64,000 nt of DNA from Cinnamomum chago (taxonomy: Eukaryota > Streptophyta > Magnoliopsida > Laurales > Lauraceae), in contig CP142452.1 of the NCBI GenBank assembly GCA_038049695.1, positions 53,402,501 to 53,466,500 of the forward strand, in the 5' to 3' direction. A program made the position numbers and the translations under genes. This document shows positions 9,441 through 58,855 of the stretch, in pieces (the first letter of the stretch is position 1; each line of letters opens with the position of its first letter). The notes under the pieces are model-generated. The model was given only the letters and a program-made list of their open reading frames with translations. It had not been told where the DNA came from and did not search any database.

Positions 9441-9578
9441 CCTGCATTAGAGAAGTAGAAGCAAATCCTCTTAAAATGAAAGGCCCCATTTCTGGGCTTG
9501 TGAAAATAAGATCTTTAGCCTGGCTCTTTTTTTTATGACTATACTGGAGTAAGAGTAGAGATACCAAATAAGGCCTTA

Positions 9579-10342: not shown

Positions 10343-10432
10343 CTGCAAGAGACGTTTTGAAAAGGCAGAAACTCGCTTTAAGTTGATATCATTCTTCATC
10401 GCTTTGACCAGTAATTGAAGAAACATTTCTGA
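10343..10432 (-). CDS. SWA2: SWA2-like exon f (30 codons, SEMFLQLLV...FSKRLLQ)
   Basis: The minus-strand exon lies between a GTGGCAG acceptor and a GTTAAT donor and has 30 codons: [20 protein letters not shown] followed by [10 protein letters not shown]. Family members continue here with an alanine- and glutamine-rich stretch containing QYACG. That part was not found between 1 and 10342, so the next intron is at least 10.3 kb and includes the split MITE and the first copia element. Confidence 0.92.
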
Positions 10433-10824
10433 CTGCCACAATAATTATACATCAGTCAGTGACACCCACCAAGACAGTTAATGTAGTAATGAAAAGGAAG
10501 TCAAATGAAAACAATGATTTAAAACTCAAGACTCCATCCTTGACCAGGCAGGGGAGGGGGTCAAGTTGGCTCAACTCTCAATTTTTTTGTTTTCCCTTTT
10601 GCAGAAGGGGTTGGAGGAGAAGGGGAGAATGAAGACGGAGGGAAAATGGATTTTTATTAAAGATTGGGACTTTGTTTGGGGTTTGGAATATTGGCTTGCA
10701 GAATCATGGAAGAAGCAGCAATTTTCAGGTAGGGTCTTCTGGAAAACATGGGTGAAGAAACATGAATGGGATTAAGAGTTTGGGGTTTCTATGGGTGTGG
10801 TGTGGAAGGTATCGAATGCGATGA

Positions 10825-10899
<75 letters not shown>

Positions 10900-13800
10900 G
10901 GGATGAGAAAAAGAAGGCTTTCGGGTACAACACGACTCGGTCATGGCCAAGTTTTAAAACAATGAATGGAACCCCATTTCCTTCATAAAAATATAACAAA
11001 GGCAACTGTCATTAGATTATCAAGACCAATCATGATTGCCTGTTTATCAAAGATCATGCAGACCTATTTTTTCGGGAAAAAATAAAACAACAACCAATAG
11101 ATGGGCAATGAGGTCCAACTGTAGTATTCAGTCATAATAACTGGAAAGGCATCACACGAGCTGCACAACGTAAGGTTCTCAATTCCTTGATACACCAAGT
11201 TCACAGTTCTATCATCCCCTGCCAGTATGTTGGACCAACAGATATAAAATGAGATGTCAATAACCCAATTTCAGGCGTGCACCCCAAGATTCCGACCCTG
11301 TAGTAAAAAAAATTTGAGCACCATCAGGTGTCATGAGCATTCAACACTGGTACAGGAATCTTGGCTCGTTGTTGCCATATTTCTACCATTACCAGCTGTT
11401 TCAAGAGTAACCATGAGAAGGAGGTAAGGCCCTCTACATAATGAATGAGTTAGGCTCAAGTCCATCGAAAGGACAATGCTAGTGCATAAGGAAAGCAGAG
11501 GGGGTACATATGCAAGAACCTGATGTTTGAGAATGGTTAACTCTTTTTTGGTAGTTGTTCAGTGTTGCCTTTATAAAAGTTATCTGATAAAACTGATTGT
11601 TGATTATAAAATAAAATAACAATGAAGCATGAGGATTGGAAACTATCCAAAATCACCTTAGAAGAATGCATGACAGCAGGAATTGGGAGTTTTGAGTACA
11701 AAGCACGGTAAAAGCGATCACTAGCAATCTGGTTTTTGGACGAAATATCATACAGAAGCATCAATGCCTGAACACCAACATTGAAGTTCTTCGAATGAAC
11801 CTGTACAAGATGTTAAATTCTTAGCACATACCACAGCGCTACAGAAGCATGAAACTTTATTAACCACAAGCCATTGCTCCAAAATGTTATATGTTGTCTA
11901 AAGCTTTTGTTCTCACCAATTTGAAAAGCACAGGTGTTTGAACCTCCACTAAATCTTCAGCCTCATCACATGCAACATAAGGAAATGCTCTTTTAACTCC
12001 CTGCAAGGACAGTGAGGGGAGACAAATGAACATGTTGAACATAAGTTCAGCCTAACAAACTTTGAAGGGGTCAAGTGGAGAATAACTTGAACAATAAAAC
12101 AGTATTCATACTTCATAGTATCATAAAACCAGCAGCAGGAAAGGACCAAAGTATAGTGATGCAATATTCAGCAACCAAAGCCTCAAAAAGTGGTTGATTT
12201 CACATCATCAAAGCTTAAGGGGGTCCAAATCAGTTTTCAGGAGCCATAAGTACAGAAAAACAGCACTGAAGATTGTATCCCAAACACCCCCCACCCCGCC
12301 GCGAAGAAGCAGCCAGCCTGACCACAACTAAACATTTACCCTAAAAAAATACCAATCCAAATCCCATAGCTATTTTTTGAAGAAAAGTTCTTTAAATTCA
12401 CCCTTTGCGTTGAGTGAATAGCCTCATCGGCAAATAGCATGCCATCCCAAATATATCCTTGATGAAATACCCTTTCTGTTTGACCAATAATCATTCAAAT
12501 TGCTTTGTAAATTTTATTAATCAAGATCTTGGGTATATGTTTGCATACACAACCATCCAGGCTTATGGAACATCCGTTAACTCCTCTAGACTAAAATCTT
12601 TAAGTATAACTCATTATAAGGATTCAGTAAGGTTTTGCATTGAATTGCCTATCTGATGCAGCCTTCTTTATCTGAGCTTGGGACTAGCAAATAATGTGCA
12701 GACACATGGAGGACATTCTATCCCACAGAAATGTCCTTTCAAAATTTTGAAAATTTGCTCAATTGCTACTTTCATTTCACCTCTTCCGCAAACTGTAAGG
12801 CCACCTCGTGACACATACATGATACAGGGCTGATTTTGCAATTGTCCCTCCAAAACCAACATCATTTGCATCCCAATAAGCATTCACTAGGGGAGATCAT
12901 GGACTGGGCCAGCCCGAGCCAGTTTGCTTGATTAAAGTGCTATGGGAGCACCATCAGCAATCAGAAGCAACTTGGGAAATAGAGGAAGATGTCAAGAAGT
13001 ATCCCTACCTTTTCATCTGAGGTATGTGTTTAAATTTGGAGGACCAAATTTCCTAAGTAGGGGAGCATGTGATGTCCCATAATTTTATGTATTCTATTAC
13101 ATTTGAGGTTTATATGTTGGAGTAATTAATTTACTTATTTGGTATAATGAGACTTGAAATATTTCAAGTTTGGGCTGGGCTAATGGGCTGGGCTGGTGGA
13201 CCGAGTTTAATTAAAATTATGTTTGGTCAGATCCGAGATAGGATAGGACCCATTAGGTTAAGCCATGTGTTTGAACTTAAAGTATTGGGACCCTTGTAAT
13301 ATAATAGGTGTTATACCTTATAAGGAGGGGAACCGCCCTTTGTAATTAAAGGAGAATTGGGATGTGCACAAGTCCCGAATGGGAGAAAGAGAGTTGCGCA
13401 CAATCTCTGAGGCCAAGATGGGTTTTGCATAGCATGGGGAGGACCCCACTAATATCACGCGACATTTGCATAGGTCTCTCTCTCATAACCCTATTTTCCT
13501 TAGTCCTCTTCTGTCGACTTCTACCTCTTGGAATATAGGACCTAATCTGAGTTCTTTTGGAAATCAAGGGAGAAAGAAGGAGAATCGAGGAAACTCTTGG
13601 GATTTATGTCCTTCAGTCTGCCCCAAGTGATAAAGGCAACCCAGGTTTATACAAGGTGAGTGGAATTTCTAATATGGCTGGATTCTTTTATCAGATCTAA
13701 GAAATTTCTGTGTTGGGTCTCTTTCAGAAAAAGTAATTCAAAGAGAAAACCATGCTGGTAGCTGATTTCCCCTTTTGTCGAACCCTAGATCAAGAGATCT

Positions 13801-16800
13801 AAGGTTGGCCGAATCTGATTTTAGTGAAATTTGGGCTGGCTGAACCCAGTTTGGGTGTCTTGGTGCTGGCCGAATCCTAGATCCGATGATCTAGAGTTGG
13901 TCGAACCCAAAATTGGGTATTTTGATGTTGGCTGAACCCTAGGTCATGAGATCTAGGGATGACAAATTCCTTTTTGGATTCCCTGTAATATTATTTGGTA
14001 ATTTCAGTTCTAAGAACTAATGTGTAACATCTGATTTCTGGTTTGGTACTCTTTTCTTGATATTATTCAAGGTGGATTTTGATGTTAAAGCTACGCATCA
14101 GTCATGAACAATCTGAAATCGATTAATGAGTGAAATACCCTTTCACGTAATCCCCACAAATGTTAATAGGGAAATACAAGATTAATACATCTTATGTGAT
14201 AACCATAGGAGGCCAAACAGGTTCATGAACCGGTGGGAACAGCTACCTAATGATCCTACACTGTTTCGGGACTGAACGTAGTAATGTCACGCACCAATTA
14301 AATACCTATTTTGAAATTGATAAGGGCATTCATAACCAGGAAAGGTGTGTGGTGTGACTGCTGAACTCCCAGGCCGGTGGTGGTGAACTTTACAAGTTTT
14401 ATGTTAGTGGCAGCCATGCAAGGTAATAACACATAAGTATCATGTTGGTCATGACTGGTTGATTTACTCTGTGGGAGGCTCAATTGTGTATATGGAATGG
14501 AGAGGGTACCCCTCAATTCATTTGTGGGAATGTATGCTGTTATGGTTGTGTTAAGGGGATGCATCCGCTCTGTTGTGTGATGGAGGTTTGCGCTGATAGT
14601 GTTGTGATATAGGATATGGGTTATTTGCGACTGATGAGGAGTAGGTGATGGGGAAATGTTTGTGTTGTGTCGGGGAAGTTCAGTTGTAATACGCAGGTGG
14701 AAATATTTGGTTTTGTTTGTTGGTTGGTGATTTGGTAAAAGCTTTGTTGTGGGATGGCCAATGGAGTGAAAGAGGTTTTGGTGATTTTGCGACTTATTTT
14801 GGTATTCTTGATGTCTGAATTCTACTTGTCCTTTTCAGTTGCTAAAAGTTAAATTTTCTTTATGTATATCACAAGTTCAAACACACAGTTAGATTAGAAA
14901 ATTTTCTCACTCAGATTGTACTGACCCCTTGGTTTGCCCTTGCCACGTAAACAGACTGCAAGAGAATATGTGGGCTGCGATGATCAGGAACTTGTCTTCG
15001 ACATCCACCGCTGAAAGACGATTCATCCATTATCTCCGAGGACTAGCCTCGTTTTGTTCCTAAATCAATTGAATAATGATTAAGTATTTGTTAGACCTGA
15101 AATTATGATGTTGTTGAATATGTAGTTCGAATGACTTATTCATCATTTTGTGAACTTTTATAATGATTATCGGATAAACAAATGAATGCCCAGCTTTATG
15201 TAATAATTTTATTTGATTTTGTTGAATTATGATGTACATTGATCATGGTCCGGAATCCGAATGGGCCCTGGATTTGGGACGTGACAAGGAGAATAGAAGC
15301 TGAGGGCCAATCTGGCTCTAGACCTCCCTTAGCAAAGCGACAACACCACCACCACCCTTCAAGATCGTCAGCACCACCTTGTCGCTGTCACCATCTCAGG
15401 CGAGCCACCATTGTCGTCCTCTTCCATTTTCCCAGTTGAATTCGCTCCCTTCGTTCCACCTCTTCGCTCATTTTCTCGTCCTCCCTAGAGCGCAGCAAGA
15501 AGGCATCATAGAACGCAGTAAAGAAACGAGTTTCAGCTCTTTTATTTTATTTTTCTTCCTCTAAAAGCACAAAGGACAAAGACAGTCACATGACAGCCGT
15601 GACACATGCCACTCTAAAAGTCATGCACTTGCCTTTATATTGTCTGACAACCAAACAGCGAAGGATAAGGTCCATTATAGGTCAAATCTTACCCAATTGA
15701 AAATTTCAGACCCAGATTTCTTCCCAAGAGAGCAATAGGCGCAGCCTCCGATCAGCAAGTAAAAATAGACCAAAATTCCACGAAGGGCTCTAAATCCAAG
15801 GATTTGGCGCTTGGCCAAATCCCTAAGGGATTAAACACACGAGCATTCTCACAACAGAGAAAAACTCGCAACCATAAGGCAAACACCTCAAATATTCATT
15901 CAATAATCAAAAGCTATCCTCCCTAATGGGGGGTTACGTATTTATAGAGGATGGGATGGGATGTTACTTCCTATGTTGGAATTCCTATGGCAACTATATT
16001 TCCTAGATTCTCTCCTAAACTCTTAAAATTACAAATTTTCTTAAACAATCCAAATCAAATAAAACTCCTCATAATGGTCGTCCAGTTAGGCCTGTGGACT
16101 GTGCCCTATAGGCTGCCCGACCCATGGGTCTGGCCCGCATTATTAATGCATAAATTGTACAATATTTTATAAAATTTCAGATATTAGAAATTCTAATGAC
16201 CAATGAGTACTAATTTTAGGTAGAAATAATGAGAAATGAACGCACAGTCAAGAGTGCAACTAGAAGACGTGAATCCATTTCGACATTGGTGTCTACAGGA
16301 CTTTCTCTTTTTCCAAGCTGAAAACCTTTGGAAAGCCCTTTATCTTCCTTTTTGCTCTTCTCCATTTTTTCATATCCTCTTGCCTCTGTTATCAGTACCT
16401 AAAAAACAGGAATAAATTCGTCAATACTAATTGTGAAAGCCACTTTTCACATTTGAACTTAAAATCAGAGTTGTGAAGGCCTCTTTTAATATTCGAACTT
16501 AAAATCAGAATTTGACATAGTGAACAGCTTAAAGTAGAGAGAACCACCCAGATGCACTAGTAGCTTCATGGTGAAGCACCTCCCTTCCACAAAAACAACC
16601 AGGGATCAATCCCTAACTATAGCGCTGATGGTGAGGGACTTTTGTGTGTGTACTTACCAAAGTTAAAAAAAAAAAAAAAACAACAACAACGTTGAGAGAA
16701 TCAATAGCATGCAAATGACAAAGGCAGCTGATATATATATATATATATATAATCAATTCACTGCTTATTTCAGTGAAGAGTATAACACTAAAATGGTAAA

Positions 16801-19800
16801 GAAAGCATTCCTCGTCTCGAGTTCTATATTAATATAGCTAGGGTACAGTGGAATATGGTCAAGTACATTTACCAGAGCCACCCACAAACTAAGAGAATTC
16901 CAACTGCAATGAAGAGGTATATTCTTACCAAAAAGAAGCCTTAATTAAGTTCAATCACTAACCATAATAGATAAACAGCAGTATCAAGAACAAATGAGGC
17001 ACAAATAATCATGAATCTTCCAAACAAAGGCTGCATATAGACCTAAAACTATAATGCCTAATCAGAAAACTAATAGAACACAACTATATTAACATATGTC
17101 ATGGGACTAACTGGGTCAGGTCAAGGTCAGGTCTGGGTCAAGGTTTACTTAGTCATTCATATACAATTTGATACAGCTCTTCGATCCCTTGATTTTATGG
17201 ATGTTTTCTTTAATCTAATCATATAGAGATCTGATCTGATCATACAACCTAGACCTAATTATGCATGAGCCTTGTGTAAAAAAAAAAAAAAAAAAAAAAC
17301 CCGCATAGTCAGCTGATATATGTTATACTTGTTTATATATTAAGTGCATGAGTTCCAAGGCCTAGACATGATCTGGGTAGTAAATCAGGCATAGTTCCAT
17401 GAGTAGATTTCTTAATATTACCGTCACATGCTTAATTAGAGGTCTTTTAGAAGAACCATAAAACCAATGCTGCTTAAGTATATCTCAAGTCAAATATTAA
17501 AACCAACAAAAAGAAATAAAATAATCAGAAATTTGTGACCATCTATGTGTGTTTGATTGCACCACATGAGAACCAATGGTTCCTAAGAGCTATCATACCC
17601 GGACACCTGTACAAGCCCAAAGCATACATGTTAGACTGATAACAATACTTCTATCGATACCCGATACTGCACCAATACTTCATGGGTAAAAGTTCAGTAT
17701 ATTCTAATTACCGAGTTCATTATTTCATAAAGTTCTTTTAAGTTTCTTACTTTTTAACATTAAAAAAAAAAGTTAGAGAGGAACATAAACAACAATAATT
17801 TCATTCAACTCAAAAGTGATCTAAAGAAAAAATTAGGACACCCGTATCCCTGTCCTAAACTTCCAAAAGCGTATAGTAGTATCCCCAATCCTCATATCCA
17901 TAATCGTCCCGTAATTGGATATGGGCATCATAGCCTAAGAGGACCATTGGGTCCCCAATGGACCCACACATTATTTAAAAGATTTATTACCCTTCTAGAT
18001 CCCTTCTTTTTTCCTTTGCGATTGGTAACAATAACACTTGAATCCACAACTTGATGGGTCCAAAAATGGTCTCGTCCCCTTTACAAACAAGCTTGCTCAC
18101 ATTCTCCATGGCCAAAAGTAGTCATTTTTGCTTTAATACTTGTTTCGATTAGCCTCCACAGTGGAACATTTCAATAGGTCCAGTGCTGTCTTTTTTCTTT
18201 TTTTTTTCTCTGCTAGGAGGCCAATGTTGTATATTGAAGAAAAGGGAATACAAGGGATTAAAGGGCTATCAGCCACCAAAAGAATACAGCCCAAGCCCAA
18301 ACTTTTGGTGGTTAAAGAAATGAGTGTAGTAGAGATAAAAATGTGGATATGTATGTGTGGTAAAACTAGGACAGATGGCTCCTGCAAGAATCAAAATTGA
18401 AAGAAGTCTCTAATAGGGTGGTGAAGGAGGTCTGGGGAACAAGGCATGTAGAGTGGGTTGCGGTAGAAGCCGTGGGTGCTGCAAGTGGGCTGCTGACTCT
18501 ATGCGACACAAGAAAAATTTCAGTGGAACGAAGCCGGGTGGATGTCTTCTCCCTCTCAGTGCTGGTGGAACACCTTCAGAACAATAAAAAATGGCTCCTT
18601 ACCTCAGTATATGGTCCTAATAACAACCATAGAAGAGATGAGTTTTGGAAAGAGTTGTATATGATTAAGGGGAAGATGGAGTGGGCCGTGGTGCAATGGG
18701 GGGGACCGGAATATCATTAGATTTCCAAGTGAAAAGCTGAGAGGTAAAAACCTTACAGGAGAAATGAGGCGCTTCTCAGATTGGATAAACTCTCACTCTT
18801 TGGTGGACTTGCAAATGGGTGAAGCGTCGTTTACTTTGTCTAATCATTAAAGCAATCTGCTATGTCCAGGCTGGATAGGTTCTCTGATGCACGCCCTAGG
18901 GTTAGGGCTTGCGGTGGAAGTGCTAAAAGCACAATGGGTGCTGAAGCACGTGTCCGAAGACACAAACTATCTCCGAAGAGACAATAACGAGGACGCACCT
19001 CAATGGGAAAACCCAATTTTATTAATCAACTCTAAAAATAATCTTGAACAATGCCATAGAAATAGTAAAAGAAGACTTAAGCTCTAAGAAACCTAATTAA
19101 ACTAGGAAACTAAAGAAATAGAAAATCTAATCCTAAATAAAACTCTTTAAATAAAATCAGAAACTAATGACATATAATTAGTTAATAAAATATCCTAAAT
19201 CTAAGTGGGCCCTACACATGTGGCCATGAGGTCTACGCTACATCATTCTTGGTCTCCTCAGATTGGATTGAAACCTACCCAGAGGTCATCCAGATTGCTT
19301 TGCCTAAGCCAGTTTCAGATCATTGCCCGATTCTGCTAGATTCGGAGTGTGAAAGAAGGGGACTTTCACCTTTTCGCTTCTAACTTATGTGGCTAGAGGA
19401 AGGGAACTTTACTAAGCTGGTCCAGAAGTGGTGAGAAGAGACAGGGGTGGAGGGATGGGCGGGTTATAGGCTGGCCACAAAATTGAAGCAGCTGAAAATC
19501 AAAATGAAGGAGTGGGCAAAGGAGCACTTTGCGGAAGTGAAGCACCAAAAGTCTAAAATTCTAACAGATATTCAATCTTTAGATGGCAAGGAGGAGACAG
19601 GTCAGCTGTCCCGGGAAGAAGAAAAGAAGAGGTTGGAAAAAGAAGAGTTACAAAAAAAATTGCGGAAGGAGGAGATAAGATGGAAACAAAGGTCGAGATG
19701 CAATTGGCTAAAAGAAGGGGATAAAAACACTAAGTTTTATCATGGAATGGCATCCTTGAGAAGAAGGGCTAACAGGATAGTTAGCATAATGGATGGGGGG

Positions 19801-31800: not shown

Positions 31801-31927
31801 GATTGTAAATGTATCTAAAGTTTACTTATTAGTCTGTAATACATATTCTTAGGAGATTATGATAGCTTGTAATTAGGACACAACATTTATATAAAGTGAC
31901 TTTCGATACCCTTATGGGGTACACAGA

Positions 31928-32011
<84 letters not shown>

Positions 32012-36674: not shown

Positions 36675-36742
<68 letters not shown>

Positions 36743-37144
36743 TGGGGCAGCGCCCGTGCTTTTTTTTAGAAGAAAATGCCGCTTCTACTTGGGCCCACTG
36801 GGATGCATGATGATCATGGAAGTCCATTGGATGGAAAGATCCATGTGAGGCCTACCTATATGCAAAAATCTTGAATCCATAAATCATCCTAACCTTTTGA
36901 TCCATGTAGCTAAAAATTAATGGGTTAGAGGCATCATTTTATTATAATTTGAATCAAATGGTGAGGAAAAGTTGGATGAGTGTCAAACTTGGACTTATGA
37001 CTATTCATATGTGTGAAAAGACTAGATTGACTCAACATGGCCCCCATAACAAAAAAGAGGGGCGGACAAAGGGGCATTTTCAAAGTGGGATGTTTTTGAG
37101 AATTTCCTATATATGGGGGATATTCATGTGCATCCTTCCCTCAC

Positions 37145-37178
<34 letters not shown>

Positions 37179-40100
37179 TAGAAGTTCTGAAGATAAGAAA
37201 GGGGAAAGGAAACGGAGAAGACAACTAGGGCTTTACGATTCTGTCGAGACATAAGGCAGCAACATGTAATAAGACAATTTTCTTTTATTTATAAAGCCAA
37301 AATGACCTTGTTAGATAGATAAGCTCTGAAGATTCCTAACCCGGAAAGTCAACCAATTAGAGTAAGTCCAGAACCGACAATCGAGTACAATGCACTAGTA
37401 AGTCACACACTCGATGCTACTTCTACCTAGTATTGTTGGATCATAAACTCGGTTGTGTCACTGATATGATTCCAACAGTTGATAAGCTATGGCTTGCAAA
37501 ACTAACAGATAAGTTAAATAAAAAACAATAAGTGGACTGGAAAGTTACACAAAATCACTAAAGCATTTAAAGAATCGCAGCATTTATTAGCACACACACA
37601 CTAACTTCAATAATGCAAGGTAAATACATAGTTTATACCTTAAAAAGTGCAAAATAAACATCCATTAAACGCTTTGCTATCTTGGGGCCATCTCCACCTT
37701 TACTTAAACGAATTTGGCTCAAAAAATTAACCTGCAAAGTACAGGGCACTTCTATTAAAAAATAGTCTATCACAATATTAGATATATCACAAAAAGCAAT
37801 GCAAGCCTCTCTCTGAATTGGCACCCTACCACATTAGAAAACATAATATTGATGCCATCAAACTTATTACTTCAAGAAACAAAGATCAAGGGGTTAGGAC
37901 AAAGTGATGGAGCTAATCCTTCACCACCCCCTCCTCGAAAACACACAGAAACAACAGCACCTTGAATAACATCAATCCAGGCGGGCCCCACAGGCAGGTT
38001 CACAACTGAGGTGTGAAAATGTGCAATGGAAGATTGGTCATATACACTGCATAATATACATGTGTAGGTCACAATAACCACTACTCAAGTCCCTTTTTTT
38101 CCTAAAAAAACACTCCAACCTGGATACACTCCCACCTGGATGCATGACAGTCAACAAAGACAACAGATAGATAGGTTTGGACAATGATTAGGGCATGTGC
38201 ACAATATACTGATCAAATGGTCTTGGCCACTAATTTTAAAAGTTCAATGACTATATATAAGATTGTTTTTATGGGGAAAAGGCCAAAACAGCATACCCTA
38301 AGCAGGCATCCAATCCATACACTTATATTGATAAAAATTAACCGAATTATACATTTTTTTATGAAATTACTGCAAAGGACAGCAAGTGTACTAGGTTATA
38401 TAGAACAGTTCCTTATGTACTTTTAATACTCCTCAAGTTGATGCATACATATTAATCATGCCAGCTTGACATAAACTTTGATCTTGAAATCTCGGAAGAG
38501 CCCTTATAAAAATAACCAGTAATCAATTCTAAAATCTTAATTTGAGTGAAGATAATTTCAGCCTCAAACTTTTCCCATATGAAGAGACAATCTATTTCTA
38601 TGTGTTTAGTCCTCTGCAAAAAAAAAATTTGACTCAACACCAGACTCGGGACCCGAGTCGCTCTGGGCCGAGTTCGAGTCGAGTCAGGCGAGTTGACCAG
38701 GCCAAGTCCAAAATTAAAATTAAAATAGTCGGCCAAGTCCGATGGCCAATGTCAATCCAGGCCTCCAGGCCCAATCTCGCAAGCCCATTTAGGTCCAACC
38801 AATGTACATGTGTACATACCTTAGTTGTTAGCTACAGTTGTGGACATGATTAGATACTGTAATTAGGGCAATCCACCCCTATGATTAGACTGTAATTAGG
38901 GCATTCAGCCCCTATATAAAGAAGACCCAGTCGCCCCTTAAGGGACATGGCATTCATCAATGTTAAACAGGCCCAAGGCCCATAACAGGATCCAGTCCAA
39001 CACATATCACGTGGGTTGATTTGGTCAATATATCATTCAGCTGTACATATTCTATTTAGGTTTTGGTTTCCTAACTTATAATAGAAATTGATTGTAATTA
39101 GTTAGCTTCTTAAATTGGAGCCTTGATTAAGGCATTGTAATAACTATATATTGTGATACAATCTCCAAAGGAGAGGACATAGAAATAATACAATCATCAT
39201 TCAAGAACTCTCGTTCCATTTTTGCATTCTAAAATTGTGAGAATGACATGGTATCAGAGCCATGTTCAAAGAAGTCTAGGTATTTGGTCTTACACAGCAT
39301 CAAGGCAATAGATTAGAGAGCAACCAATCTCTCTCGTGAAGAAAGACAGATCAGGGATCTGTTCCGAGAAATCCAGAGAGTTTCGAGCAAGACAGATCAC
39401 GGATCTATATGGTGGCCCACCTCTGATAATCAAGACAACTTCAGCAACCTATCCAGACATGGTCGCCTGGATTTTCTAGGAATTTTGGACATTTTTTCAG
39501 ATTTTTTCATCTCTTCCAGGTTGGTGATTTACACATTCTCGTCATTGTCCAGATTTTTAATACTGTTTTTATCTGGACCGTCCAGAATCTTGGATCTGTG
39601 GTGGAATTCGATCATTCTTTTTCCAGTTGAAAGCAAATTACTGCACTTCTTCAGATTAGTGATCTGATCTCTGTCCAAATCTTTCAGTGGGGCCCACATA
39701 GCAGATCAGCAGGTAAAATCCAGGCCGCCTGGGGTGATTTTTGGCCTTTTTTAAGTTCTATGTTGATTTTTTCCATCTCTGATTGATCAGATCTTAGTTT
39801 CTACACACAGCACAGTTTATTATCAACATTTAGAATTCATCTCTTCACTGTTACTGGATTTTCTTTGCAATCAAGATTGAAGATGGAAAAAATCTGAGGT
39901 TACCTTGATCCGATTCACGGGAAAAAATTATCCCGCCTGGTCGTTTCAGTTCCAGATTTACCTTGAGGCTAAGGAATTGTGGGGTAATATTTCTGGATCT
40001 GACCCTAAACCCAAGGAAGATGAGAAGAAGATATCCGCTTGGCTTACTAAAGATGCAAAAATAAAAACATGGATACTAGGTTCCGTCGAACCACATCTGA

Positions 40101-43100
40101 TAATGAACCTCAAACCTTATCCCACCGCTAAAGACATGTGGGGATATCTGAAGCAAGTGTACCATCAAGATAATTCAGCACGTCAATTTCATCTGGAATG
40201 TGCGATTGCTGAATATGCACAAGGGACATTGTCAATCCAAGACTACTATTCAGGATTCCGAACCCTATGGTCAGAATACAATAGTATTAAGTATGCAGAT
40301 GTGGCTCCCGACGTTCTGATCGTGATTCGTGATCTTCAGGCCTCTAGTCAAAGGGATCAGTTTTTGATGAAACTGCGGAATGAATATGAAAGTGTCGGAT
40401 CTGCCCTGATGAATCGACGCCATTACCTTCCTTGGATATATGCTTCAATGAACTATTATGCCAGGAACGGCGCATTGCGACCTCGGCTCATATAGCGCAA
40501 CAAACGACTGAGACCTATTCAGTTGCGTTCTCGGCTAATAAAACTTCTCAGCCTCCGCCGCGTGACTTGAGCAAAACGCAATGTTACAGTTGTCAAAAAT
40601 TTGGGCACATTGCAACTCAATGCAAACAGAAGGTCTGCAGTTACTGTAAAAAGTCGGGACATATCATCTCTGAATGTCGCCGCCGACCCCAACGTCCATC
40701 ACCACAGCCTCAGTCTCCACAGTATCAGCCTCCGCATGCGTATGTTGCTTCTTCGGTTATGCCTGCTCCTACATCTGCGCCCTCACAGCCTGGTCCCTCA
40801 TCCTCTCACTCCTGAAATGGTTCAACAGATGATTGTCAATGCCTTCTCTGCTTTTGGTCTCTCAGGTACATCCCCTCCATCTTCTACTTGGTTTCTTGAT
40901 TCCGGGGCGTCTAATCATATGACGTCTTCCTGTACACCACTCTCCAACGTGCAAAGCTACAATGGCCCTCTTCAAATCCAAACTGCTAACGGGGACCATG
41001 TTCCCTTTACTGCTGTCGGTGACATCTCTGGTCCCATTCCATTGAAAAATGTTTATGTGTCCAAATTTAACCTCCAACCTTTTGTCAGTCGAGCAGCTTG
41101 TTGAAAATAATTGTAATATCTCTTTTTCCTCTTTTGGTTGTGTTGTGCAGGACCAGATGTCCGGGAAGGAGATCGCGAGGGGGCCTCAGTGTGGACGCTT
41201 GTTTCCGCTGGATTTTTCAAAACTTGCTAGGAATAAATTTGACAATGATGTGTTTTGTTTTTCCCTTAGAGATAACTGTCAATTGTGGCATAAAAGACTT
41301 GGACACCCTAATTCAAAGGCTTTGTCCCTGATGTTCAATTCTGGTTTAATAAATAAAACTGCTGGTTCATCTTCTTGTGTGCCTTTTGATTGTGCTACTT
41401 GCAAATTGGGAAAAAGCAAAACCCTTCCTTTTTCCATTTCCACTTCACACAGCACTCAGTGTTTTGATTTGGTTCAAAGCGATGTATGGGGAATTGCTCC
41501 AGCTCTTTCTCATGCTCACTATAAATACTTTGTGACTTTTATTGATGATTTCAGTCGGTTCACGTGGGTTTACTTTCTGCATTCCAAATCTGATGTTTTT
41601 CATGTTTTTAAAATTTTTCTGGCTTATGTTGAAAATCAATTTTACACCTGCATTAAAATCTTGCGATCTGATTCAGGCAGGGAATATATGTCCTCTGATT
41701 TTCAACAGTTTTTGCAAACCAAAGGTATTATTTCTCAAAGAACTTGTCCTTATACTCCACAGCAGAATGGAGTCGCTGAAAGGAAAAATAGACATCTCCT
41801 TGATGTCACTCGTTCCCTTCTCCTTGAATCATCAGTTCCTACCCGTTTTTGGGTTGAGGCTTTGGCTACTGCAGCTTATCTCATTAATCGTATACCATCC
41901 TCTTCAATTGACAATCAGAGGCCATATTATCGTCTCTACAAGACATCTCCATCTTATGATGATCTTCATGTTTATGGTTCCGTTTGCTTTCTGCATTTAC
42001 CTCCGTCTGAACGGACCAAACTTACCGCTCAATCCGCTCAATGTGTTTTTTAGGATATGCCCCCTTCCAGAAAGGGTTCCTTTGCTATGATCCCCACATT
42101 CGTCGCATCCGCACCTCTAGGAATGTCGTGTTTTTTGAAAACGAGTATTTTTTTCAAAAACACCTTGATCCTCCGGACGACTCCTCATTAGTTTCCTTAC
42201 CTGGTTTCTCTAATGACACATCTATTGTTCGATTTAATCCTAATTGTGTATCACAATCGGAATGCAGACGCGCCTCCCAGGGATTCCCCTCCAGATCTTC
42301 CTCCCGCATCCGGTTCCCCTCCGGCAATTGGTCCATCTGGACTTCCTACATTGCGTCGCTCCACTCGCATTTCGGTACCACCCGACCGCTATGGGTTCTC
42401 CCATACTTCCTTAATGGCAACTTTGTCCTCTTCTTCCATTCCCCAATCCTATTCTCAGGCTGTGCAGGACAAAAGTTGGAACCAGGCTATGCACAATGAA
42501 TTGGCGGCTTTAGAGAAAAATCATACGTGGGATATTGTCCCCTCTCCTGTGGGTGTCAAACCTATTGGCTGCAAGTGGATCTTTTCTCTCAAGTTAAAAT
42601 CAGATGGCACTCTAGATCGATATAAGGCGCGCCTTGTTGCTCTCGGAAATCGGCAGGAATATGGCATTGATTATGATGAGACTTTTGCTCTCGTCGCCAA
42701 GATGACCACCGTCCGCATCATCCTTGTTGTTGTTGCATCTCAATCTTGGCCTCTCTATCAAATGGATGTCAAAAATGTGTTTCTTCATGGTGATCTCAAA
42801 GAAGATGTTTACATGCGTCTGCCACTGGGGTCCTCTTCCGGGAAGGGTATGGTTGCTAAGCTCCGTCGCTCTCTCTATGGTCTGAAGCAAGCCCCTCGCG
42901 CATGATTTGAGAAATTTCAGGATGCTCTTCTCCGCTTGGATTTTCATCCCAGCCAGTATGATCCTTCTATGTTCTTACATCATGCTCCTTCCGGGATTAC
43001 TGTGCTACTGGTCTACGTTGATGACATTGTCATTACTGGTCCCAATGCACAAATGATTCATAAACTCCAAGCTTCTCTTCATCAGTCGTTTCAAATGAAG

Positions 43101-44287
43101 GATCTCGGCCCCTTACACTATTTCCTTGGTCTTGAAGTTCATCAATCGTCTGCCGGTATAGTTCTCAATCAGCACAAATACACCATGGACCTCATTGACT
43201 TGGCGGGCCTTGCTGCTTCTGCTCCTGTCGATACGCCGATCGAACTAAATGTCAAGCTTAGTAAAGAGGAAGGTGACCTTCTTCCAGATCCTACCGCATA
43301 TCGCCAGTTAGTGGGTAGTTTGATCTACCTCACGATCACCCGTCCTGATATCTCCTTCGTGGTCAACCTAATGAGTCAGTTCATGACTGCTCATCGTCAT
43401 CTTCATATGGCTGTTGTTCGCCGCATCATTCGGTACCTTATTCGCACACCGACTCGCGGGTTGTTTTTTCCCTCCAACAATCCTCTATCTCTCAAAGCTT
43501 ATTCCGATGCTAATTGGGCTGGTTGTCCCGATACTCGCCGATCGACGACAGGATGGTGCATGTTTTTGGGTGATAGTCTGATTTCTTGGAAATGCAAGAA
43601 ACATGACAAAGTTTCCAAATCTTCTACCGAGGCTGAGTATCGAGCCATGTTTGCTGCCTGCTCTGAAATTCTTTGGCTCCGAGGTCTGCTCTCTGACATT
43701 GGTTTTCCAGCAGAAGGAGCTACTCCCCTCTATGCAGGTAATACCAGTGCAATTCGGATTACTGAAAATCCGATTTTTCATGAACGCACTAAACACATCG
43801 AGCTTGATTGTCATTTCATACGAGATGAGCTTAAACGCGATGTCATCAGCCTTCCGCATGTCTCCACTGAACTTCAAATTGCTGATATTCTCACCAAAGG
43901 TCTTCCACGACCTCGCCATCAGTTCTTGGTTGGCAAATTGATGCTTGTTGATTCTCCCGCATCAATTTGAGGGGGGGTGTTAAACAGGCCCAAGGCCCAT
44001 AACAAGATCCAGTCCAACACATATCACATGGGTTGATTTGGTCAATATATCATTCAGCTGTACATATTCTATATAGGTTTTGGTTTCCTCTTAGAATAGA
44101 AATTGATTGTAATTAGTTAGCTTCTTAAATTGGAGCCTTGATTAAGGCATTGTAATAACTATATATTGTGATATAGTCTCCAAAGGAGAGGACACAGAAA
44201 TAATACAATCATCATTCAAGAACTCTCGTTCCATTCTTGCATTCTAAAATTGTGAGAATGACAATCAACCCTTAAGGGACATGGCAT

Positions 44288-44356
<69 letters not shown>

Positions 44357-46249
44357 GTTTTATATTTCATATGCCTTAAGGGTCGACTAGGTCTTCTTTA
44401 TATAGGGGCTGAATGCCCTAATTACAGTCTAATCATAGGGGCTGATTGCCTAATTCCAGTATCTAATCATGCCTTATTAAGGCAATACAATCTCAGATCC
44501 ACAATTGTAGCTAACAATGACAGCCAAGTCACATAGGACTCGGCCAAGTCGCATGGCCGACTCGCCCGAGTCACATGAGACTTGGCCAAATCCCATAGTT
44601 CAAGTCCCATAGGACCCGACTCATTTAGGGCCGAGCCTGAGTCGACTCGGACTCAGCTGATATTTTAATCCATGATGAGAAACACTAAAACTTAACAGAA
44701 TTAACAGTTAAAGATTAAACAGTAATATAGAATGTTAGCAATTTTGGAAGGCCGATATCCTACGAGCAACTGCAAGTGCAGTCCAACACGGTGGGGCTCA
44801 CTTGGGCCCACCATCATCAATGCAGACTCTTTAACAGTCTTTTCATCCCATGATCTGGCATCGGGCCCAACTTTACACTCACCGAACCTACACTCCCTGT
44901 TGGATTGATTGAATCTCGACTCAAGAGAATCTACGGTTAAGATGCCATTAAACTTTATGGTTGTTAAATCAAGGGCTAAGATGATCTGGTGGGACTGATT
45001 TGTTGGATCCCCCTTGTCCATGAGGAGACCTTTCCATCTGGCCTCCTCCCATTGTTAAACTTGGATCTAAGTGGGCCAGTAGGAGAACATTGTCCTACTT
45101 TATTATGTGTCTAATAGGAAAATAACATTGAGTTCTACCTTAATTAAGGGTCAGGATGCTTCGATGAGCACAATTTTTCGTCTACCTCTAACCTACAAGT
45201 AGCCCTACCCAAGCCCTCTTCCATGATTAGCATGAATACCTGTGGGCCCCATAAAAAAGGTTTCTTATTTTGTTAAAGGAATTGTTCCTTGTAAAATATT
45301 ACTTTATATGTATATACGTATAGAAGGATGATCCACTGCACACGGTGCGCACGGATCTTATGTGCCCAATACCTAGTGGGGCCCACTGATCACCTATTCG
45401 AGTGGACCACGTAACCAGGGCCCCCCTAATAGTCACCAGATCCCTGGATTTACACCCATCCAAGACTGGACCGTTGGATCGACTCCACTTTTGCTTTTTC
45501 TTTTTAGTATAAAGCAATTGAAACTTGTGGATTAATGATCAAGGGGTTAGGATGATCAGGTAAACCCCAATTTTGTGCATAGGTTGGACCCACCTAGATC
45601 ATCCACAACCCAAAAAATATATATATCTCCAAGGATCCCAATCCCAAGTGGGCCCCATAGGCATACACACGCATACTATCATCATCAACCAAACCTTATC
45701 CTGAACCAAATCCCAATCCTAGGATAGATTGCACTTCTTCAGATCTTGTTTGTAAGATATCCAAGACACGATTCATCATTATTAAGCAAATAACAACCTT
45801 GTCCCAAGAGAATTTGTCCCCCGTGATCCATCATACCCCTTCACCGTCGCTATCCCAAGTGAATCAACGCTAACCTCAATTTGAGACTAATCCGAGTTTT
45901 GCTCACTCTTCGATTGGTCATGCATAAATGACAAACACACTTGAACTGATGGTCAAACACTGTACAACTTTGAGTCCGTTAAATCATATGGGCCCTCCCT
46001 CCCTTCCCCACTCCCTCCCCTCAAAATGTGGGGTGATAAAAAGATACAAAAAATGTACTAAAGAATTCAATGAACAAGTTAACCAAGAAGGCTTTTTCTA
46101 TCTTTAATTTTCCTTTCTTTCATTTTTTTCTTTTTTGACGAACTAAAAGCTTTAATGATACAAAAGATGAAACATACGGCATAATACTTCGCTCGGGGTC
46201 CAAGATGTGGCCGAAAGATAAAAGAATCCACCTCTTCGATCACAACTCC
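10343..46249 (-). CDS. SWA2: Noc1/MAK21/CEBPZ-like nucleolar ribosome-assembly protein, internal part (six exons)
   Basis: This host gene is read from six minus-strand exons that join without any frame change: 46178-46249, 37639-37731, 16246-16398, 11917-12000, 11657-11800 and 10343-10432 (636 bp, 212 codons). Every border is GT-AG and every exon is a whole number of codons in phase 0. The joined reading shows the CBF/Mak21 core in its usual order: FRPHLG and [38 protein letters not shown], the [14 protein letters not shown] and [10 protein letters not shown] stretch, then [13 protein letters not shown] and FSKRLLQ. In this family (yeast Mak21/Noc1, human CEBPZ, Arabidopsis SLOW WALKER 2) the protein pairs with Noc2 in the nucleolus on early 60S precursors. 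The N-terminal part should lie right of 64000 and the C-terminal part left of 1, because no exon for either is visible here. Introns are about 8.4, 21.2, 4.2, 0.1 and 1.2 kb. The family call comes from recalled motifs, not from a search. Confidence 0.87.
10433..11656 (-). other. Intron between exons e and f, with a GA microsatellite
   Basis: This 1.2-kb intron has a purine-rich stretch at about 10550-10780 and a long GA tract at 10828-10897. The rest is unique-looking and holds no recognised element. Confidence 0.6.
10828..10897. repeat. (GA)n microsatellite, about 35 units
   Basis: This is a pure GA dinucleotide run of about 70 bp. On the host gene strand it reads (TC)n inside the intron before exon f. 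Confidence 0.97.
11657..11800 (-). CDS. SWA2: SWA2-like exon e (48 codons, VHSKNFNVG...VMHSSK)
   Basis: The minus-strand exon lies between CTTGTACAG and GTGATT and has 48 codons. It contains [20 protein letters not shown] and [19 protein letters not shown]. The bulk-SDRFYR-LY pattern is characteristic of the CBF/Mak21 domain. The reading continues in phase 0 into exon f after a 1.2-kb intron that contains no recognised element. Confidence 0.93.
11917..12000 (-). CDS. SWA2: SWA2-like exon d (28 codons, GVKRAFPY...VLFKL)
   Basis: The minus-strand exon runs from the CTTGCAG acceptor to the GTGAGA donor. It encodes [20 protein letters not shown] and then QTPVLFKL. GVxRAFP is a hallmark of the Noc1/Mak21 family and directly follows the ALLT end of exon c. 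The next intron is only 116 bp. Confidence 0.92.
12001..12892. other. Intron sequence upstream of exon d
   Basis: No element ends or exons are recognised. A minus-strand stretch at about 12780-12880 reads like a retroelement remnant (AYWDAND-like), but it is too short to assign. Confidence 0.4.
12893..15286 (+). mobile_element. 3' end of a Tekay/Del-like Ty3/gypsy chromovirus
   Basis: The fragment starts with about 100 bp that reads as a chromodomain tail on the plus strand ([26 protein letters not shown]), then a short stretch ending in a purine-rich tract (AGTAGGGGAGCA), then a long LTR from 13068 to 15286. The W-E-I-E-E and YPYLF pattern is typical of the pol C-terminus of Tekay/Del chromoviruses. 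The rest of the element is absent and no matching target duplication was found, so it is a truncated fossil. Confidence 0.72.
13068..15286 (+). repeat. Tekay/Del-like LTR, copy A (about 2.2 kb)
   Basis: The LTR begins TGTGATGTCCCATAA and ends GGGACGTGACA. Its ends and inner landmarks recur in copies B (25624-27707) and C (49304-52103): a TATA-like box near 13315, a splice-donor-like GGTGAGTGG at 13655, and the CTCACTCAGATTGTACTGA block near 14910. The orientation is opposite to the host gene. Confidence 0.75.
15287..16245. other. Intron sequence with a possible old LTR (about 15.79-16.15 kb)
   Basis: About 15287-15600 is CA- and CT-rich and unassigned. From about 15790 to 16150 the DNA looks like a minus-strand LTR: a CTATAAATA box on the minus strand near 15940, a polyA-signal-like region beside it and a TGGGTCTGGCCCGCAT end. 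No partner or target duplication was fixed. Confidence 0.4.
16246..16398 (-). CDS. SWA2: SWA2-like exon c (51 codons, VLITEARG...SRLLVALLT)
   Basis: The minus-strand exon lies between TTTTTTAG and GTGCGT and has 51 codons. It starts [14 protein letters not shown], passes through a lysine-rich linker (KSKKEDKG), and ends [11 protein letters not shown], which in this family leads straight into GVxRAFP; that is the first residue block of the next exon. The lysine-rich linker is normally the variable part of the family. The intron before it is about 21.2 kb and holds the LINEs, a PIF-like element, a decayed copia element and a Tekay-like solo LTR. Confidence 0.9.
16548..16680 (+). mobile_element. 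tRNA-derived SINE with polyA tail
   Basis: About 115 bp are followed by 16 A residues. TAGCTTCATGGTGAAGCACC resembles an A box with its flank, and AGGGATCAATCCC resembles a B box about 50 bp later, the spacing of an RNA polymerase III promoter. GAGAGAA words on both sides could be remnants of the target duplication. Confidence 0.55.
16681..18359. other. Intron sequence, no element with clear ends
   Basis: The stretch has an (AT)n patch at 16731-16752, an A run at about 17278-17300 and AT-rich single-copy-looking DNA. A repeat-like segment at about 18140-18360 leads up to the LINE insertion site. Confidence 0.45.
18397..22206 (+). pseudogene. L1 ORF2 remains: endonuclease, reverse transcriptase, zf-RVT
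   Basis: Endonuclease remains lie at 18397-18720 ([25 protein letters not shown]). The reverse transcriptase region follows the inserted [16 protein letters not shown] (about 19720), [14 protein letters not shown] (ends 20037), [20 protein letters not shown] (about 20180-20240), [14 protein letters not shown] (about 20390) and a [10 protein letters not shown] catalytic block (about 20700). [10 protein letters not shown] (about 20900) and the zf-RVT region [18 protein letters not shown] (about 21800) complete the C-terminus. In-frame stops occur at about 20038, 20250, 20697 (just before YADD) and 21715. There is also a frame change between about 20520 and 20600, so the element cannot move on its own. 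Confidence 0.9.
18885..19245 (-). repeat. Solo LTR (361 bp) inserted in the LINE
   Basis: The insert begins TGATGCACG and ends CTACATCA. It is flanked by TTCTC and TTCTT, a 5-bp target duplication with one change. It splits the LINE endonuclease region. Its AT-rich middle with TTTTATTAATCAA resembles the LTRs at 35348-35764 and 57407-57767, so I orient it on the minus strand. No internal part remains. Confidence 0.72.
22427..23159. other. Intron sequence with a SINE-like segment (about 23038-23140)
   Basis: Most of this stretch holds nothing recognisable. About 23038-23140 resembles a SINE: a GTGGTGATTGTTGCAACC A-box-like stretch, then GGTTGCATGTTCGAGTCATG (B-box-like GTTCGAGTC), then an A-rich end (AAAGAAAAAAAGAAAAAC). 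Confidence 0.45.
23163..24038. mobile_element. PIF/Harbinger-like non-autonomous element, 876 bp
   Basis: The ends are GGGGTCGTTTGTTTC and, on the other strand, GGGGACGTTTATTTT, flanked by TTA on both sides (23160-23162, 24039-24041). The subterminal regions are rich in CACATGTG and ACATATGTAAATGA words. The middle holds three tandem copies of a unit of about 175-185 bp. There is no transposase reading. Confidence 0.8.
23306..23830 (+). repeat. Three tandem copies of a 173-184-bp unit inside the PIF-like element
   Basis: Units start at about 23306, 23479 and 23663. Each holds a TGATGATATCTCAACC-like start, CATCAACGGTTGAAAATTGG, GAGCTTCTGAAGAATATGAA and an AAAAGGCGGACTG end. The second and third copies are closer to each other than to the first. 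Confidence 0.85.
24047..24684 (-). mobile_element. RTE-clade LINE, 3' fragment with target duplication
   Basis: The 638-bp fragment is flanked by TTAGTTAC at 24039-24046 and 24685-24692. It was cut short at its 5' end on insertion. Its 3' end, near 24047, has GGTTTGGTTTGG in place of a polyA tail, as RTE elements often do. The left duplication overlaps the TTA target site of the neighbouring PIF-like element, so the RTE went in exactly at that border and later than the PIF-like element. Confidence 0.87.
24071..24679 (-). pseudogene. C-terminal part of RTE reverse transcriptase ORF (202 codons, open)
   Basis: The reading has [73 protein letters not shown] and [15 protein letters not shown], the conserved tail of plant RTE (BovB-like) polyproteins. 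It is open from its first Met to a stop near the element's 3' end. The catalytic reverse transcriptase domain and the endonuclease are missing, so it is a dead-on-arrival copy. Confidence 0.9.
24693..25171. other. Intron sequence without recognised features
   Basis: The stretch is AT-rich. No element ends, exon or RNA gene was seen. Confidence 0.5.
25172..25622 (-). mobile_element. Copia fragment: 3' LTR plus RNase H tail
   Basis: An LTR-like segment at 25172-25410 is followed by the complement of a polypurine tract (CCCCTCAAATTGATGC). Then comes a minus-strand RNase H remnant of the [10 protein letters not shown] region up to 25622, where a Tekay-like solo LTR interrupts it. The LTR matches the one at about 34641-34945, so both belong to one old copia family. 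It is a heavily broken fossil. A few bases of it probably continue after 27712. Confidence 0.72.
25624..27707 (+). repeat. Tekay/Del-like solo LTR, copy B (2084 bp)
   Basis: The LTR begins TGTAATATCCTG and ends GGGTAGTGACA. It is flanked by a perfect 5-bp duplication AACAC (25619-25623, 27708-27712), so it is a solo LTR left by recombination. It has a TATATA box near 25825 and a GGTGAGTGGA donor-like site at 25981. It sits inside the copia RNase H remnant. Short inverted GGACC/GGTCC words occur at about 27120-27240. Confidence 0.88.
27727..28500 (-). mobile_element. L1 LINE 3' fragment with RNase H domain
   Basis: On the minus strand the segment reads the RNase H (RVT_3) tail found in many plant L1 ORF2 proteins: [20 protein letters not shown] (about 28345-28285), then [36 protein letters not shown] and [20 protein letters not shown] (about 28010-27940). 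It ends in CCATTAAAAAGAAAAAG on the minus strand, an impure tail near 27727. At least one in-frame stop lies near 28283, just after SFIGNP. The 5' limit is unclear. It is a different family from the LINE at 18.4 kb, which shows no RNase H domain. Confidence 0.8.
28501..28870. other. Unassigned segment between LINE fragment and tandem repeat
   Basis: Open frames exist on both strands (28427-28891 plus, 28465-28665 minus), but neither resembles a family I know. It may be more of the LINE or ordinary intron. Confidence 0.35.
28871..29400 (+). repeat. Tandem repeat, about 2.5 units of 203-216 bp
   Basis: Units start at GCACAACAGC (28871), GCACAACAGC (29087) and GCACAGCAAC (29290), giving periods of 216 and 203 bp. 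Shared blocks are ACTTTAATCAATTTCTTCCC, GACAAGAAAAGCATGGAATA and CACCAAATTTGGGAG, together with a TATCGCA word. The first unit has gained an A run of about 20 (28953-28972). The third unit is partial. Confidence 0.88.
29401..30640. other. Intron sequence with a T/G homopolymer block
   Basis: No exon or element ends were seen. The only structure is the T run and G run at 30210-30262, listed separately. Confidence 0.5.
30210..30262 (+). repeat. T15 followed by G-rich run (possible G-quadruplex)
   Basis: About 15 T residues are followed by GGGGGGGG, AGTGGGGA and then about 18 G residues. Several G runs of three or more in a row could fold as a quadruplex. On the host transcript this is C-rich. 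A homopolymer of this length may also be a sequencing artefact. Confidence 0.8.
31931..32008. repeat. (TC)39 microsatellite
   Basis: This is a pure TC run of 78 bp within the decayed copia region. Confidence 0.97.
32538..32894. mobile_element. hAT-like MITE, copy 2 (about 357 bp)
   Basis: This is the reverse complement of the copy at 47010-47358 over its full length. The ends are GGATCAAAATAGCGG and, on the other strand, GGTTCAAAATAGTG. Shared inner blocks include TTTGGAATCATGTAGGGGTA and TACTAGGTTTTA. No target duplication can be read. It lies inside the decayed copia element. Confidence 0.78.
34641..34945 (-). repeat. 5' LTR of the decayed copia element
   Basis: It shares long blocks with 25172-25410: ATCAATACTATAGTCAAGCC, GGCTAATCAAAGCAATTAGG, TTGTTAGTGTACATGTGGG and a TAGTGGTCC end. 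The outer border is approximate. Confidence 0.72.
34946..35347. other. Intron sequence without recognised features
   Basis: The stretch is AT-rich. Nothing was recognised. Confidence 0.5.
35348..35764 (-). repeat. Solo LTR (about 417 bp)
   Basis: It begins TGGCACAGCC and ends GGCTGCGTCA. The flanks ATAAC and GTAAC fit a 5-bp duplication with one change. An AGCGATCG...TAGATCAATGCC stretch resembles the chromovirus LTR at 57407-57767, and the middle carries TTTTATTAATCAA. On the minus strand it starts TGACGCAGCCCGACCC. Confidence 0.6.
35978..36304 (+). repeat. Two tandem copies, period 205 bp
   Basis: The copies start at 35978 and 36183. They share TGGAACAGTTCGGGTTT, AGGGTATTGGTTTGGTTTT and GGCATTTGGGAATTC. 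A (TG)n, GCGCGC, (TA)n and (AG)n patch at about 36105-36175 separates them, and a similar TA tract follows the second copy. Confidence 0.85.
36326..36675. repeat. Dispersed repeat related to 45296-45680, copy 1
   Basis: It shares with 45296-45680, in the same order, a GTGGGGCCCAC-like word, CATGGATTCGGATGAAC, AGACCGTTGGA, a TATAAAGC word and AAACTTGTGG. The TGTAAGGAC word near both ends (about 36336 and 36669) is a direct repeat, not an inverted one, so element borders remain uncertain. Confidence 0.5.
36681..36738. repeat. (TG)15(AG)14 compound microsatellite
   Basis: Thirty bases of TG repeat pass directly into 28 bases of AG repeat. Confidence 0.97.
36739..37638. other. Intron sequence downstream of exon b
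   Basis: The stretch has a (TA)n(GA)n patch at about 37143-37180. The rest shows no element ends. Confidence 0.5.
37639..37731 (-). CDS. SWA2: SWA2-like exon b (31 codons, VNFLSQIRL...VYFALFK)
   Basis: The exon is bordered on the minus strand by TTTGCAG and GTATAA. Its 31 codons include [17 protein letters not shown] and [13 protein letters not shown], the most conserved helix of the Noc1/Mak21 family. An open frame continues upstream through the acceptor for about 31 codons, but it does not match the family and the splice site explains it better. The exon lies about 8.4 kb downstream of exon a, and the plus-strand copia element sits in the intron between them. Confidence 0.9.
37732..38635. 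other. Intron sequence upstream of exon b
   Basis: A CTCCTCAAGTTGATGC-like stretch at about 38430 and a minus-strand [10 protein letters not shown] reading at about 38600 are weak traces of a copia RNase H end and polypurine tract. Too little remains for an element call. Confidence 0.4.
38636..38760. repeat. CCGAGTC/GACTCGG-rich dispersed repeat, copy 2
   Basis: It has ACTCGGGACCCGAGTCG, GGGCCGAGTTCGAGTCGAGT and AGTCGGCCAAGTCCGATGG. It is the same repeat type as at 2517 and 44520. Confidence 0.6.
38800..38947 (+). repeat. Left arm of an inverted repeat around Copia-2
   Basis: The arm runs from TTGTTAGCTACAGTTGTGG through ATGATTAGACTGTAATTAGG and CCCCTATATAAAGAAGACC to CCCTTAAGGG. Its reverse complement is found at about 44370-44515 with a few gaps. 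The CTATATAAA box and the TG start suggest that the arms are LTR-like or belong to a foldback element. Confidence 0.8.
38961..39248 (+). repeat. 5' LTR of Copia-2
   Basis: The LTR begins TGTTAAACAGGCC and ends GAGAATGACA. The tRNA-Met primer site follows directly. Confidence 0.95.
39905..43970 (+). pseudogene. Copia-2 gag-pol coding region (fossil)
   Basis: The remains in order are: gag ([13 protein letters not shown], about 39.95 kb), two CCHC-like knuckles (about 40.58-40.68 kb), protease region ([12 protein letters not shown], about 40.9 kb), GAG-pre-integrase ([10 protein letters not shown], about 41.3 kb), integrase core ([17 protein letters not shown] and [14 protein letters not shown], about 41.55-41.8 kb), reverse transcriptase ([12 protein letters not shown], about 43.01 kb) and RNase H ([26 protein letters not shown], about 43.6-43.83 kb). 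It is the same general copia type as Copia-1 and Copia-3 but a separate family by LTR. Confidence 0.93.
43978..44263 (+). repeat. 3' LTR of Copia-2
   Basis: It follows the G-rich polypurine tract and ends at the ATCAA duplication. It is two bases shorter than the 5' LTR. Confidence 0.95.
44291..44353. repeat. (TC)n microsatellite, 63 bp
   Basis: This is a pure TC run in the loop between the two inverted-repeat arms. Confidence 0.97.
44370..44515 (-). repeat. Right arm of the inverted repeat around Copia-2
   Basis: It reads CCTTAAGGGTCGACTAGGTC, TTTATATAGGGGCTGAATGC and TAATTACAGTCTAATCATAG, the complement of the left arm, then CACAATTGTAGCTAACAA. It has a short insertion compared with the left arm. 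Confidence 0.8.
44520..44680. repeat. CCGAGTC/GACTCGG-rich dispersed repeat, copy 3
   Basis: It has CATAGGACTCGGCCAAGTCG, GCCGACTCGCCCGAGTC and CCTGAGTCGACTCGGACTCA. It lies directly outside the right inverted-repeat arm, as copy 2 lies just outside the left arm. Confidence 0.62.
44681..46177. other. Intron sequence downstream of exon a, with a dispersed repeat (about 45296-45680)
   Basis: The segment at about 45296-45680 is related to 36326-36675 (GTGGGGCCCACTGATC, TCCCTGGATTTACACCCATC, GACTGGACCGTTGGATC, AGTATAAAGCAATTG). The remainder holds nothing recognised. Confidence 0.5.
46178..46249 (-). CDS. SWA2: SWA2-like exon a (24 codons, [10 protein letters not shown]...AKYYA)
   Basis: The reading on the minus strand is flanked by a TATGCAG acceptor at its right end and a GTATGT donor at its left end. 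It encodes 24 residues including [13 protein letters not shown], the segment that comes before the CBF core in Noc1/Mak21 proteins. Both ends are phase 0. It is the most upstream exon seen. No preceding exon was found between 46250 and 64000, where the DNA is intron-like or mobile-element sequence. Confidence 0.85.
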
Positions 46250-47001: not shown

Positions 47002-47009
47002 ATTACCAA

Positions 47010-47358
47010 CATGGTTCAAAATAGCATGGTGGCCACATTAATGGCTGAGGCCGGCATGCTATTTTGAAATAAGCGGCTCTACGCTTTAAAACCTAGTAAA
47101 GTCAAGCAATTCTAATTTAAAATACTATTTTTCCTATTTCTTCTCCTCAATAGCCTTTTTCTAAAGTTGTCCCTACCCTTTATATGGTTCCAAATCAAAA
47201 AAAGAAGACTGCTGCTCGATATTTGAATTTTTTTTTGACCACTTAAAAAACTCACATCGATACGCCGCTATGTATCGCCACAAACGCTCCGTATCGCTCG
47301 GCACATAGCGTTTTGGCCATTGGCAACTACGCCGCCACAACTGCTGTTTTGATCCTTA
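47010..47358. mobile_element. hAT-like MITE, copy 1 (349 bp) with 8-bp target duplication
   Basis: The element is flanked by ATTACCAA at 47002-47009 and 47359-47366. The ends GGTTCAAAATAGC and (other strand) GGATCAAAACAGC form an imperfect inverted repeat. It has no coding capacity. The 8-bp duplication is the hAT pattern. It is in inverted orientation to the copy at 32538-32894. Confidence 0.82.
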
Positions 47359-58850: not shown

Positions 58851-58855
58851 TTTTT

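Follow-up and report, generated by a model that had tools for sequence, protein, structure and literature searches.

Six short coding blocks on the minus strand of a 64,000-nucleotide stretch of Cinnamomum chago DNA (the window; C2:53402501-53466500, contig CP142452.1, in an assembly of 1.06 Gb and 14 contigs) most likely constitute exons 7 to 12 of a single-locus, 16-exon gene of the SLOW WALKER 2 (SWA2)/Noc1/Mak21 family, whose transposon-bearing introns would be spliced away to yield a ribosome-assembly protein of 1,018 aa. We assign a probability of roughly 93% to this reading. The gene model runs on the minus strand from C2:53541234 to 53375133, a span of 166,102 bp from ATG to stop codon. 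An initial annotation of the window had described the same blocks as a six-exon gene occupying 36 kb, which proves to be only the interior of this larger gene.

The six blocks (72-153 bp) had nonetheless been placed precisely. They comprise exon 7 (46178..46249, 72 bp, 24 aa), exon 8 (37639..37731, 93 bp, 31 aa), exon 9 (16246..16398, 153 bp, 51 aa), exon 10 (11917..12000, 84 bp, 28 aa), exon 11 (11657..11800, 144 bp, 48 aa) and exon 12 (10343..10432, 90 bp, 30 aa), each of which is in phase 0, preceded by AG and followed by GT. The five proposed junctions (46178/37731, 37639/16398, 16246/12000, 11917/11800 and 11657/10432) are all exact to the base. When joined, the exons encode 212 residues that match residues 448-667 of yeast MAK21 (E = 1.4e-31) and the Pfam family PF03914 (CBF/Mak21; E = 1.2e-16), with the CBF match starting in exon 11. 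These two matches exclude chance as a source of the six exons and bear out the earlier assignment to a CBF/Mak21 (Noc1/SWA2) host gene, and none of the six translations reads as a retroelement, which was the alternative raised at that time. A protein search with the 212 residues returned 29 of 254 candidates at E ≤ 0.001, wherein every protein carrying an organism name is from a plant. Two of the 29 (Coffea and Raphanus) are named SLOW WALKER 2 or SLOW WALKER 2-like, and two others that lack an organism name are titled ribosome biogenesis protein MAK21.

With plant relatives as queries, no further exons were found in the remainder of the window (46250-64000 and 1-10342), which itself holds neither an N-terminal nor a C-terminal exon. 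This empty search first suggested that the six-exon block might be a piece of a gene picked up by transposons (transduplication) or a partial duplicate left stranded, but searches of the whole genome overturned that idea. A Taxus protein (P0128) produced eight match rows, every one of which falls at this locus; among them are four C-terminal exons located 3.7-27.4 kb to the left of the window. Likewise, all nine match rows of a Corchorus protein (P0032) fall here, and these add four exons of the N-terminal part, the farthest lying 74.7 kb to the right of the window (in both searches E ≤ 1, with every first-look candidate scored, 13 and 17, respectively). Two more exons were recovered by tblastn on the flanks, at window-equivalent positions 76158-76090 and 75820-75701. 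Thus, the plant's own genome adds ten exons, correctly ordered and sharing the strand of the first six, that flank the window on both sides and complete the reading frame; moreover, no other copy was found that could have served as the source of a fragment. The window lacks further exons because the gene runs on beyond it in both directions, and we give a captured or stranded fragment next to no credence. Two weak plus-strand matches in the window, at 460-582 (E = 0.003) and at 4835-5077 (E = 0.001, within a copia element), were taken as chance because they lie on the strand opposite to the gene and do not fit the exon order. Scans of the window for Rfam families and tRNAs found nothing.

The 16 exons measure, in order, 658, 76, 120, 76, 69, 120, 72, 93, 153, 84, 144, 90, 83, 366, 238 and 615 bp, and the 15 introns 5393, 19898, 5962, 30393, 269, 29451, 8446, 21240, 4245, 116, 1224, 14090, 754, 1004 and 20560 bp. 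Splicing out these introns, which range from 116 bp to 30.4 kb and sum to 163,045 bp, would leave a coding sequence of 3,057 bp including the stop codon, which runs from ATG to TGA with no internal stop and makes up 1.84% of the span. The introns thus account for approximately 98% of the gene, at a mean length of 10.9 kb (163,045/15). All 15 have GT-AG borders, those of the ten outer exons having been placed by hand from homology and frame, and five of the 15 donors carry five of nine consensus bases. Within the window lie, on the minus strand, introns 7 (37732..46177, 8,446 bp), 8 (16399..37638, 21,240 bp), 9 (12001..16245, 4,245 bp), 10 (11801..11916, 116 bp) and 11 (10433..11656, 1,224 bp), together with parts of intron 6 (46250..64000 of 29,451 bp, extending past the window to equivalent position 75700) and of intron 12 (1..10342 of 14,090 bp, extending to the left). 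The size of about 21.2 kb originally reported for intron 8 is correct, but this intron is the longest only within the stretch then considered, as the longest in the gene reaches 30.4 kb.

On sequence comparison, the gene is an orthologue of SLOW WALKER 2/Noc1/Mak21. The full 1,018-aa protein aligns with yeast MAK21 at 240.1 bits (4.7e-70) over residues 168-642, with a second stretch at 725-993, whereas its best chains with Noc4 and Noc3 reach 32.2 and 21.2 bits, which places it nearest to Noc1/Mak21. The Pfam CBF domain (PF03914) occupies residues 517-760 (149.5 bits, where the cut-off is 22.1; E = 1.1e-43). Collinear similarity to MAK21 (Noc1; PDB 8e5t, chain 5) covers MAK21 residues 258-721 and 726-1017, while its N-terminal region is unaligned, and the yeast protein is more distant than every listed plant protein. 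Mak21/Noc1 is a repeat scaffold whose partner is Noc2, and the product described here would most likely act in the same manner, as a nucleolar assembly factor for the large ribosomal subunit (60S).

A search with the full protein, in which 8000 candidates were scored, found 696 proteins at E ≤ 0.001. Among the best 120 of these 696, the closest is the avocado protein AAC387_Pa03g1495, with 92% identity over 99% of the query, followed by proteins from Tasmannia (67%) and Magnolia sinica (63%), a ranking that by itself points to a probable member of the Lauraceae. The gene has in common with Arabidopsis SWA2 and plant Noc1 proteins its family, its CBF domain and, in part, its exon borders. Its predicted length also falls within the 921-1,112 aa of the best 120 relatives, although its spread over 166 kb sets it apart from plant SWA2/Noc1. 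A further difference from the other long relatives among the best 120 is an insert of 13-14 residues in exon 6 (near residues 339-352) that, among these 120, only avocado shares. In exon 6 (C2:53478320-53478201, outside the window) this insert sits between LGDP and KAAS, and its DNA contains a GGAAGGCAG-like word three times, resembling a small tandem duplication. A translation of a public 1.1-kb contig, P0027, reads across the boundary of exon 11 and intron 11 and is similar in pieces (68% and 43%) to window positions 11761-11109. Intron 11 of a close relative is therefore present in a read collection.

This is the only SWA2/Noc1/Mak21 locus found in the assembly, as all 17 match rows of the two relatives' proteins fall here. 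The CBF profile has five matches in the genome, of which three are on C8. As a control, two of these C8 matches, which are neighbours (profile positions 1-52, with one internal TAG, and 49-108), lie within 1.8 kb, compared with 17.8 kb between the two matches at the SWA2 locus.

We considered whether the gene might be complete yet dead or dying, such that its frame is still open but transcription through its introns has been lost. The presence of 15 introns of up to 30.4 kb each, weak donors and a young copia element in the gene's own sense would fit such a state, and expression in Chloranthus is described, in PMC8626473, as declining with introns longer than 40 kb, a length not reached here. 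Opposed to this are 3,057 bp without a stop, 30 intact splice dinucleotides and 92% identity to the avocado protein. In addition, this is the sole locus found for its family, and PMC12332008 describes the Arabidopsis member as necessary for gametophyte and embryo development. We consider decay improbable, and favor a gene that is expressed and spliced to give the full-length protein.

The positions of the introns can be compared with those of other plants through the ends of protein alignments. Alignments to the 147 retrieved proteins under 850 aa in length, taken at an identity of 45% or higher, gave 65 ends situated over 10 residues from the terminus of the protein; 29 of these 65 lie no more than three residues away from an exon border of this gene, with all 15 borders considered, against 9.8% expected (binomial 3.9e-13, which is a guide only because the tested proteins are related to one another). 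Such ends touch 11 of the 15 introns. Most intron positions therefore look old and common to other plants, which suggests that the introns grew in place. At least part of this enlargement would have come about through retrotransposon insertion.

Indeed, transposon domains of copia, gypsy-like and non-LTR types are present in introns 6, 7, 8 and 12. Intron 7 contains a copia element on the plus strand, opposite to the gene (38961..44263), and intron 12 contains another on the minus strand, in the gene's sense (4191..9440). Each has two LTRs (K2P 0.0286 and 0.0175, respectively) and a 5-bp flanking repeat, and the corresponding insertion ages are approximately 9.5 and 5.8 million years, as estimated from short LTRs (286 and 233 sites) and a rate of 1.51e-9 per site per year borrowed from PMC8626473. 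Intron 6 holds gypsy-like remains with gag, aspartyl protease and integrase domains (52796..56367, minus strand) and a copia-like element on the plus strand that reaches the end of the window (60204..64000). Its other contents include an open frame of 187 aa (58176-58736, minus strand) that has no Pfam match and resembles an element protein, and an inverted repeat (47810-48396) with 243-bp arms that are 94% complementary and spaced by 101 bp, a large foldback that may be a non-autonomous DNA element.

The initial annotation had filled intron 8 with two L1 LINE fragments, an RTE fragment, MITEs, copia remains and solo LTRs. This description is borne out in part by a non-LTR-type reverse-transcriptase fragment (Pfam RVT_1; 20251..20613, plus strand) and an RNase-H-like fragment (Pfam RVT_3; 27989..28273, minus strand), but the two-LTR copia elements sit in two other introns. 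The frame previously read as RTE (24071-24679) has no Pfam match, and neither does the frame at 19447-20040; we take these frames to resemble plant RTE and L1 elements. Much of the intron sequence has no match in any search that was run. Perfect GA/TC runs of 63-78 bp occur in three introns (10829-10897, 31932-32008 and 44291-44353), and the first of these separates exons 11 and 12, as part of intron 11.

A new point to emerge from this analysis is the absence of exon 7 from two protein records. An alignment of nine full-length proteins reveals that in the avocado protein the last residue of exon 6 is followed exactly by the first of exon 8. Among the 120 best-scoring long relatives (at least 850 aa), exon 7 is missing, defined as fewer than 40% of its residues being aligned, from two records, that of avocado (P0148) and a Nelumbo record labelled 'isoform X2' (P0259). 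By the same measure, the 12 other exons tested (2-6, 8-13 and 15) are missing in none of the 120. Exons 1, 14 and 16 were omitted from this count because their lengths vary, and fragmentary models are under-represented in it because the 120 are the best-scoring proteins.

The absence of exon 7 could reflect an annotation miss, genuine skipping of the exon or its loss at the DNA level, and for avocado we regard an annotation miss as the most likely of these. Gene finders tend to drop very short exons. Exon 7 is a 72-bp, in-frame exon that is present in 118 of the 120 relatives, and in C. chago its neighbouring introns measure 29.5 and 8.4 kb, conditions under which gene finders miss exons. The avocado gene thus probably has and uses the exon, a view to which we hold with some reserve because the same exon, alone of the 13 tested, is also missing in a second, distant plant whose record is labelled an isoform, and because, of the 15 acceptors, that of exon 7 is the poorest in pyrimidines (a share of 0.41). 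The donor of exon 7, with five of nine consensus bases, is tied with four others. It is conceivable, but in our judgment unlikely, that exon 7 is instead a cassette that can be skipped in plants with swollen flanking introns, the flank lengths being known here for C. chago only. If this were so, intron growth through transposable elements may more than once have made the splicing of an essential ribosome-assembly factor switchable, since the records of two distant lineages, avocado and Nelumbo, both lack exactly these 24 in-frame residues.

These records also bear on the concern, voiced when the window was first read, that automatic annotation could mark the whole window as repeats. The gene as a whole has not been lost in avocado, where the named protein P0148 covers it. 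A weaker form of the concern stands because this protein lacks exactly one of the window exons, and so the worry may hold for one exon rather than for the whole gene.

Plant introns swollen by transposable elements are already in print, and the present gene is long relative to reports for Lauraceae but within the published range for plants. Long genes with LTR-rich introns are described as prevalent in Chloranthus and magnoliids in PMC8626473, where, as here, coding length is conserved and introns are enlarged by LTR elements; the same paper gives a mean Lauraceae intron of approximately 1.66 kb, compared with 10.9 kb in this gene. In spruce, most of the extra length is reported to reside in a few very long introns. 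Cycas genes extended by introns are likewise host genes, and one that spans 2.1 Mb is expressed, according to PMC9023351, whereas the gene described here covers 166 kb in an angiosperm genome of 1.06 Gb. PMC7145194 reports that, in rice that has lost OsIBM2, transcripts are polyadenylated prematurely within heterochromatic introns. Genes with such introns whose expression is maintained by IBM2 or OsIBM2 resemble the present one in having transposon-bearing introns within a gene expected to be expressed, a likeness that is based here on the transposon content of the introns. By analogy with Arabidopsis and rice, these introns may be read through with IBM2-type machinery. Literature searches, made by terms other than the species name, found no paper on this locus.

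Although this architecture has previously been described for magnoliids, Chloranthus and gymnosperms, the SWA2 gene of C. chago provides a clean worked example, wherein a conserved gene of the housekeeping type occupies one locus of 166 kb that is 98% intron. Genes of this kind offer a natural test of transcription and splicing through transposon-bearing introns in plants. They also test the loss of tiny exons by annotation, as in the avocado protein that lacks one exon amid a well conserved stretch.
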